From assembly GCF_000092125.1 (NCBI RefSeq), contig NC_014212.1, positions 2,066,001-2,130,000 on the forward strand: 64,000 nucleotides of DNA, written 5' to 3'. Shown here one piece after another: positions 982-55,551 of the stretch (position 1 is its first letter; every line of letters begins with the position of its first letter). The notes below the pieces were generated by a model. It was not told the origin of the DNA. It made no database searches and was given only the letters and a program-made list of their open reading frames with translations. Origin of the DNA: Allomeiothermus silvanus DSM 9946. Lineage in GTDB: Bacteria; Deinococcota; Deinococci; Deinococcales; Thermaceae. Made by a program: the position numbers and the translations under genes.

Positions 982-1449
982 TCACTGGACCTTGACGGCG
1001 ATCCTGCGGGCTTTGGCCTCGGGAGTCTTGGGCATGGAAATCCGCAACAGGCCGTTGTGCACCGTAGCCTGCACCTTGTCCACTTCTACCCCGGCGGGCA
1101 GGGTCAGGGTGCGGCTGAAGGCCCCGCGCGGAATGCCCTGGAGCCAGTAGCGCCGCTCTTCAGAGGCGGCTGGGTTGTAGTTACCCCGAATGGTGAGCTG
1201 ACGGCCCTCGAGGCTGATGTCCAGGTCATCTTTGCTGATGCCAGGAACCGCCATCTCGAGCACCACCTCTTCCCCGGTCTCGTAGAGGTCTACCGGGTAA
1301 CTCTCAGCCCAGCGCCCGAAGGAGGAAGCCACCTCGCTCCACAGCCGATCGAATTCGTTGAAAAGATCGCTGAAGCCGCCAAGGTTGGCCAGATTCCAGC
1401 TCCTGTAAGGCACCGGTTGACCATTGGTCCTGCGGATGATGTCCAACAT
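982..1449 (-). CDS. Small heat-shock protein, Hsp20/alpha-crystallin family
   Basis: An ATP-independent holdase chaperone that binds unfolding proteins in the cytoplasm. The protein is 155 aa. The alpha-crystallin domain begins near VDLYETGEEVVLEMAVPG at about residue 51 and ends with the conserved A-x-x-x-N-G-L-L-x-I box (ATVHNGLLRISMPK), followed by a short tail. A GTG at 1458 is also in frame, but the Shine-Dalgarno AGGAGG (1458-1463) overlaps it, so the ATG at 1449, 8 nt downstream of it, is chosen. The promoter is strong and the leader holds a 9-bp inverted repeat. An IS481-type element sits immediately upstream of the -35 box. Confidence 0.93.
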   Translation of the reverse strand: MLDIIRRTNGQPVPYRSWNLANLGGFSDLFNEFDRLWSEVASSFGRWAESYPVDLYETGEEVVLEMAVPGISKDDLDISLEGRQLTIRGNYNPAASEERRYWLQGIPRGAFSRTLTLPAGVEVDKVQATVHNGLLRISMPKTPEAKARRIAVKVQ

Positions 1450-1490
1450 AGCCGACACCTCCTTTCGTCCGGTTGGTAGATAGTTTTGAG

Positions 1491-14742: not shown

Positions 14743-15471
14743 CTATGCGCTTTCCGTCTTGGGTTCGGATTTTTGCGGTTCGTTCAGCTCGCGCAGCAAC
14801 GCCAAGCGCAGCCGGGCTATTTCACTTTCAAGCCTGGCCTGTTGGGCATCGAGTTCGTCGCGCAGCTTGATGATCTCCTCCACCCCGGCCAGGTTGACGC
14901 CTAATTCTTGGGTCAGGCGGCGAATCTCCCGCAACTTCTCTAGATCCCGCTCTGAGTAAAGACGGGTTTTCCCTGAGGAGCGCTTGGGCTGAATCAGCCC
15001 CTTCCGCTCGTACAGACGTAGGGTCTGCGGGTGCATGTCTACCAACTCAGCGGCCACAGAGATCACGTAGACCGGGCGGTCCTTGGCGGCGGACGGTTTC
15101 TTAGCCGGGGGTTCGGGCTCGCGCGGGGCGGGCAGGGCCGGAGGAGACTTGAGCGCCTCGAGCTTCTCCCCCAGCTCGGCCTTGAGCCGCAAGACCTCCT
15201 CACGGAAGCGGGTTTCGAGGGCGTATAGCTCGTCGCGGAGTTTAATGATCTCCTCAACCCCTGCCAGATTCACCCCAAGCTCCTGGGTCAACCGGCGAAT
15301 CTCTTTGAGCTTTTCCACATCCCGCTCGGAGTATAGACGGGTCTTGCCGGAGGAACGCTTGGGAGCTACCAACCCTTTGCGCTCATATAAACGCAGGGTC
15401 TGCGGATGCATATCCACCAGCTCCGCAGCCACCGAGATGATATACACCGGACGGTCCTTCTCCCCTGCCAT
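14743..15471 (-). CDS. Fused tandem HspR-type MerR regulator
   Basis: 242 aa holding two full MerR/HspR DNA-binding domains in one chain. Domain 1 is residues 5-82 and domain 2 is residues 130-207. I count 73 of 78 positions identical; the differences are I/V, V/I, A/Q, V/L and K/R. The linker (about 83-129) is a coiled-coil-like stretch followed by Pro/Ala-rich sequence. Each domain has the HspR box [14 protein letters not shown]. HspR represses heat-shock genes by binding HAIR sites as an ordinary dimer of single-domain chains, so this copy is unusual. The ATG at 15471 fits best; TATACT (15481-15486) lies 9 nt upstream. No HAIR box was found in its own leader. Confidence 0.9.
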
Positions 15472-52927: not shown

Positions 52928-53014
52928 ATGCACAACGAGGCGCCAGGAGCCATGGAGCCCAGCCACGCTAAGCCCGCCAGGGGTGTAGGTACAGATGAGA
53001 TAGATCAGTCTTGA
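52928..53014 (+). CDS. Possible small leaderless ORF
   Basis: 28 codons: MHNEAPGAMEPSHAKPARG..., hydrophilic. TACAAT (52916-52921) ends 6 nt before the ATG, the spacing seen at other starts here. There is no -35 that I trust, and a 28-codon frame can occur by chance. Confidence 0.25.
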   Translation: MHNEAPGAMEPSHAKPARGVGTDEIDQS

Positions 53015-53030
53015 GTGAAGTATGCTCAAC
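53010..53030. promoter_or_regulatory. HAIR-like HspR binding site upstream of lon
   Basis: CTTGAGT-N7-GCTCAAC, against the HAIR consensus CTTGAGT-N7-ACTCAAG: 12 of 14 fixed positions match. It ends 17 bp before the lon -10 box and so covers the -35 region. The window also encodes an HspR-type protein. Confidence 0.6.
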
Positions 53031-53047
53031 TGATTTGAAGTGTGATA

Positions 53048-53053
53048 TATAAT
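53048..53053 (+). promoter_or_regulatory. -10 box of the lon promoter
   Basis: TATAAT; no good -35 (the HAIR-like box sits there). Expected start of transcription near 53060, giving a leader of about 110 nt. Confidence 0.55.
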
Positions 53054-53169
53054 CCTATATCTCCCCATCCTCGCAGTACAATTCGCTTACATCGTCGGCG
53101 AGCCGCCGCGTCCGGCGATTCCGTACCCACCCGTGGAGCGGAAACCTCGGCGGATAACGGAGGAAAGGA

Positions 53170-55551
<2,382 letters not shown>

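Follow-up and report, generated by a model that had tools for sequence, protein, structure and literature searches.

Upstream of lon in Allomeiothermus silvanus DSM 9946 lies an inverted repeat that resembles the HspR-associated inverted repeat (HAIR), which raises the question of whether the heat-shock repressor HspR controls this protease gene and, if so, from which position relative to its promoter. The stretch analyzed here, referred to as the window, comprises 64,000 nucleotides (positions 2,066,001 to 2,130,000 of NC_014212.1) and belongs to the largest part of a 3,721,669-bp genome of three contigs, namely contig C1 (3,249,394 bp). Judged from comparative sequence evidence, the repeat CTTGAGTGAAGTATGCTCAAC (53010-53030, plus strand) is very probably an HspR operator, through which lon would be repressed with the help of DnaK and freed upon heat, lon then rising together with hsp20, clpB, dnaK, and groESL.

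The repeat upstream of lon and the fused HspR

The published consensus of Streptomyces HspR is CTTGAGT-N7-ACTCAAG (PMC6102357). The repeat at 53010-53030, CTTGAGT-N7-GCTCAAC, departs from it at 2 of the 14 fixed positions, and the 12/14 match given by an earlier, sequence-only reading of this DNA is therefore borne out. Under a first-order Markov null, sites with at most 2 mismatches are expected about 0.1 times per 64 kb and 0.0018 times in the 716 bp that precede lon, which makes the position of the repeat ahead of this gene notable by itself. When 3 mismatches are allowed, 1.96 HAIR-like sites are expected in the window, and at that stringency the match is unremarkable.

The main case for a genuine HAIR before lon is conservation, as seen in an alignment of the lon upstream region, from the HAIR through the start codon, of 22 Meiothermus-type genomes (genera g1, g2, and g3 of the family). 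Nearly all of them carry a same-type site, which an invariant -10 element follows after 45-46 bp and which, with few exceptions, has the form CTTGAG(T/C)-N7-(A/G)CTCAA(G/C), and many relatives reach 13-14 of the 14 fixed positions; one genome (G039) has an additional base separating the arms. Of 50 family genomes, 13 contain the full sequence CTTGAGY-N7-RCTCAAG, as a single copy in each, and 11 of these 13 copies are the lon site, all in g3. The remaining two are located in a coding region of G036 and at ssrA of G071, a member of g5 in which no HAIR is found at lon. The perfect HAIR of G071 (L104:1501-1521) overlaps the -10 element of ssrA, which encodes transfer-messenger RNA.

As for the repressor, the fused HspR that the sequence-only reading had placed in the window is confirmed by the protein family search. 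The product of 14743-15471 (minus strand; 242 aa from ATG), which has two HspR domains in one chain, scores 396.8 bits against NCBIfam NF047377 (HspR, fused homodimer type; cut-off 300) and contains two MerR_1 domains. Its gene lies 38 kb from lon, beside genes for a malic enzyme and an M20 peptidase. The tandem form is present in most of the family, and the fused form also in families f2, f3, and f4; the f5 members examined have a single-domain HspR. Several Thermus genomes likewise encode a single-domain protein, one of them in a 2-contig assembly, which suggests either that recombination between the repeats has removed one copy or that draft assemblies have collapsed the two.

The gene downstream of the repeat (53170-55551, plus strand) encodes an ordinary Lon protease, ATP-dependent protease La, of 793 aa, with 930.5 bits against TIGR00763 (cut-off 608). 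Its divergent neighbor, named from domains, appears to encode an oxidoreductase of the glutamate synthase small subunit type.

HAIR-like sequences upstream of lon are also seen outside the family. In families f2 and f3 they match 12-14 of 14 positions and lie mostly inside the last clpX codons (LES..LKK); those with 13-14 matches (L115, L120, L113, L117, L112, and L116) have constant CTT GAG TCT...CTC codons. Such sequences may reflect an operator or a coding constraint and are left out of the evidence. The one upstream of lon in G008 has a terminator-like appearance and is excluded as well.

Heat-shock genes preceded by the same motif

The sequence-only reading had proposed a genome scan for the motif, with particular attention to clpB, dnaK, and hsp20, and had named the lack of enrichment before heat-shock genes as the outcome that would speak against it. 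The unrefined motif (CTTGAGT-N7-ACTCAAG, at most 3 mismatches) matches the genome at 112 positions, four of which lie in the promoters of lon, groES (genome position 595013), dnaK (437086), and hsp20 (415903). With lon excluded as the starting point, 3 matches lie no more than 200 bp from one of five heat-shock genes, compared with approximately 0.03 to 0.05 expected (P about 4e-6, or 2e-5 with the control rate, both to be read with the caveat that the hsp20 gene was recognized only after the search). Enrichment is visible only by position, ahead of heat-shock genes: genome-wide, the strict motif shows no over-representation (112 forward vs. 186 for the reversed control), because positions 6-7 and 21 differ among the genuine sites.

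A weight matrix built from the lon sites adds a clpB site at 425429 and reports same-type sites before groES, dnaK, and clpB in other Meiothermus-type genomes. The clade-adjusted motif CTTGA-N9-RCTCAAS, with which clpB joins the targets given by the unrefined scan, has 8 matches in 3.72 Mb, and 5 of the 8 stand before lon, groES, dnaK, clpB, and hsp20. Since this motif was shaped on some of its own targets, the test with the unrefined motif is the clean one.

At clpB and at the hsp20 gene at 415903, the left HAIR arm forms the -35 element of the promoter (TTGACA-N17-TATATT and TTGACA-N17-TATTAT, respectively), and at dnaK the operator is nearly adjacent to TTGAC. The groES promoter (L165) contains a CIRCE-like repeat (controlling inverted repeat of chaperone expression), TTGACACTC..GACTGTCAA, beside the HAIR, and groESL is likely under dual control of HrcA and HspR. 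Variants such as CTTGACA-N7-TATCAAG precede clpB in Thermus and f4 genomes.

Two further genes may be mentioned here. The second hsp20 gene, located in the window (982-1458), has no HAIR upstream, unlike the one at genome position 415903. Upstream of ffh lies the HAIR-like sequence CTTGATATTGACACGCTCAAC (L188:1501-1521), which hardly differs among some eight g2/g3 genomes, and ffh is a possible HspR target.

Taken together, the recurrence of the motif at hsp20, clpB, dnaK, and groES and at their counterparts in relatives, along with a bona fide fused HspR, supports the reading of the lon site as a HAIR operator that belongs to an HspR regulon. Several observations weigh against it. The lon site is degenerate (10/14) in the two g2 genomes, and no HAIR is found at lon in the ten Thermus genomes (g4) examined, most of which encode HspR. 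Conversely, four Thermus draft genomes in which hspR is not detected have clear HAIR-type sites ahead of dnaK and clpB. Finally, no HAIR is found at the promoter of hspR itself.

The lon promoter and rival explanations

The sequence-only reading had also placed the HAIR over the -35 region, with TATAAT as the -10 of the promoter. Its arithmetic is accurate: CTCAAC (53025-53030) is followed, after a 17-bp gap, by TATAAT (53048-53053, plus strand). This hexamer, however, is probably not the -10 element: G023, the sister species, has TGTAAC at this place, further genomes have TTTGAC or the like, and none of the other relatives has TATAAT. The choice of promoter made on this basis was probably the wrong one. 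The predicted true -10 of lon is TACAAT (53077-53082, plus strand), which has the form TA(C/G/A)AAT in 22 of the 22 aligned genomes, 45-46 bp after the HAIR (46 bp in the window), and transcription is expected to start near 53089. With this conserved element as the -10, the lon operator would not cover the -35 but would precede the promoter.

The -35 itself is weak, since a sigma-70 consensus scan calls no promoter on the plus strand before lon. The aligned candidate is the -35-like hexamer CCTATA (53054-53059), 17 bp ahead of TACAAT. It falls at the end of a conserved block, AAGTGT...CCTAT (53038-53059, plus strand), located between the HAIR and the -10, in which AAGTGT is identical in 22/22 genomes and CCTAT is present in 20/22.

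A direct block of RNA polymerase by HspR bound over the -35 of the TATAAT promoter is an improbable account of lon, even though hexamer and spacing are both present and the clpB and hsp20 operators of the same genome do overlap -35 boxes. Those two genes use the left arm as -35, and at lon no -10 follows this arm with the spacing that such a role requires. Moreover, CTCAAC makes a poor -35, no sigma-70 promoter is called at that place, and in 20 genomes besides the sister species the sequence aligned with TATAAT is not -10-like, while the hexamer at 53077 is invariant in type.

Somewhat less probable still is that a dimeric regulator other than HspR binds the repeat, or that the repeat forms part of a composite site together with the AAGTGT...CCTAT block. 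The block is conserved as strongly as the lon HAIR across the 22 genomes, and positions 6-7 of the lon site are GT or GC, compared with mostly CA or TA at other targets. The lon arms, however, are closer to the published HspR consensus than are those of the other targets, and CTTGA-N9-RCTCAAS joins lon with four types of classic HspR target. As for a chance palindrome, the number of sites expected per window at 3 mismatches (about two) and the absence of a genome-wide excess over the reversed control would allow it; the constant placement of the site and the conservation of its arms in Meiothermus-type genomes, plus the other targets, refute it, leaving a negligible probability.

Under the preferred reading, namely that 53010-53030 is an HspR operator, the fused two-domain protein would bind this site at normal temperature and lower lon transcription, with DnaK as its probable co-repressor, as it is in Streptomyces. 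Misfolded proteins would titrate DnaK, and HspR would then release its sites, so that lon would go up together with hsp20, clpB, dnaK, and groESL. At clpB and hsp20 repression would be a direct block of RNA polymerase, because the operator covers the -35. At lon the operator would span roughly -79 to -59, counted from the predicted start, and since it lies upstream of the conserved -10, repression would act from upstream. HspR binding, repression, the involvement of DnaK, and the start site of lon are all inferred from sequence comparison.

The lon leader and known HspR systems

Most surprising among the observations is a fold conserved in the leader of lon, which partly covaries and within the family is specific to this gene. 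The predicted leader (53092-53153, plus strand throughout) has an H-type pseudoknot-like arrangement. Helix 1 pairs TCGTCGG (53092-53098) with CCGGCGA (53112-53118); within its loop, CCGCCG (53103-53108) pairs with CGGCGG (53148-53153) as helix 2, which ends 5 nt before the Shine-Dalgarno sequence GGAGG (53159-53163). In a hand alignment, the first six pairs of helix 1 form in 22/22 genomes. Pairs 4, 5, and 6 show two-sided changes, of which those at pairs 5 and 6 occur within the window's own genus and depend on this manual alignment. Helix 2 has conserved core GC pairs and little covariation. For the 14 distinct g2/g3 sequences, the paired fraction equals 93.5 percent, compared with 27-51 percent in slid controls, and covariation is modest.

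A covariance model from the g2/g3 sequences matches lon once in each of the 20 g2/g3 genomes and gives one weak match elsewhere; it does not detect the diverged leader copy of the window. In computed folding stability, the window's leader does not exceed shuffled sequences (z = -0.17), and Rfam reports no family at threshold, the below-threshold match to M23 (E = 1) being taken as chance. An RNA thermometer was also considered: the computed fold pairs only part of the Shine-Dalgarno sequence, and the conserved helices stop 5 nt short of it. Tentatively, Meiothermus lon may be controlled in two layers, by HspR at an unusually upstream HAIR and by a lineage-specific leader pseudoknot that would clash with the ribosome and be opened by heat or another signal, although this is a doubtful proposal.

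In Streptomyces, hspR is located in the dnaK operon. The A. silvanus protein, in comparison with that of S. coelicolor, is a fused homodimer whose gene lies away from dnaK; groES and hsp20 are also preceded by a HAIR, and the clade consensus, CTTGA-N9-RCTCAAS, is looser. The two regulons have the HAIR consensus in common and share lon, clpB, and dnaK as targets, the S. coelicolor ones being given as such by Bucca 2003, as cited in PMC6102357. The statement of the sequence-only reading that the link of HspR and HAIR to lon is established in actinobacteria holds for the Streptomyces target. The system is not solely actinobacterial, though, since according to the account in PMC6888292 (citing Schmid 2005), HspR of Deinococcus radiodurans binds HAIR near promoters of chaperone and protease genes. 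This protein (DR0934), from the same phylum, is likened to the A. silvanus one through that published description.

Dual control by HspR and HrcA is described for Helicobacter pylori and Campylobacter (PMC6102357, PMC7464140), and A. silvanus groES likewise combines a HAIR with a CIRCE-like repeat. In H. pylori, lon is outside the three described heat-shock operons (PMC6102357, PMC7464140), and the binding sites of HspR lie well upstream of the promoters of groEL and hrcA (PMC6102357), which provides a precedent for an upstream operator as at A. silvanus lon. Regarding the fused architecture, it is already catalogued in NCBIfam, and the window HspR is a member of NF047377 with no difference found.

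The predicted lon operator is a clear new example of the known HspR/HAIR switch, in a thermophile branch for which a literature search found no experimental HspR work. The analysis yields for this branch a concrete, testable HspR regulon comprising lon, hsp20, clpB, dnaK, and groESL, in which the predicted operator is merged with the -35 at clpB and hsp20 yet separate at lon. The two-domain, single-chain HspR would be a handy subject for studying operator binding, and if the fold in the lon leader is functional, a major protease would also come under control at the RNA level.
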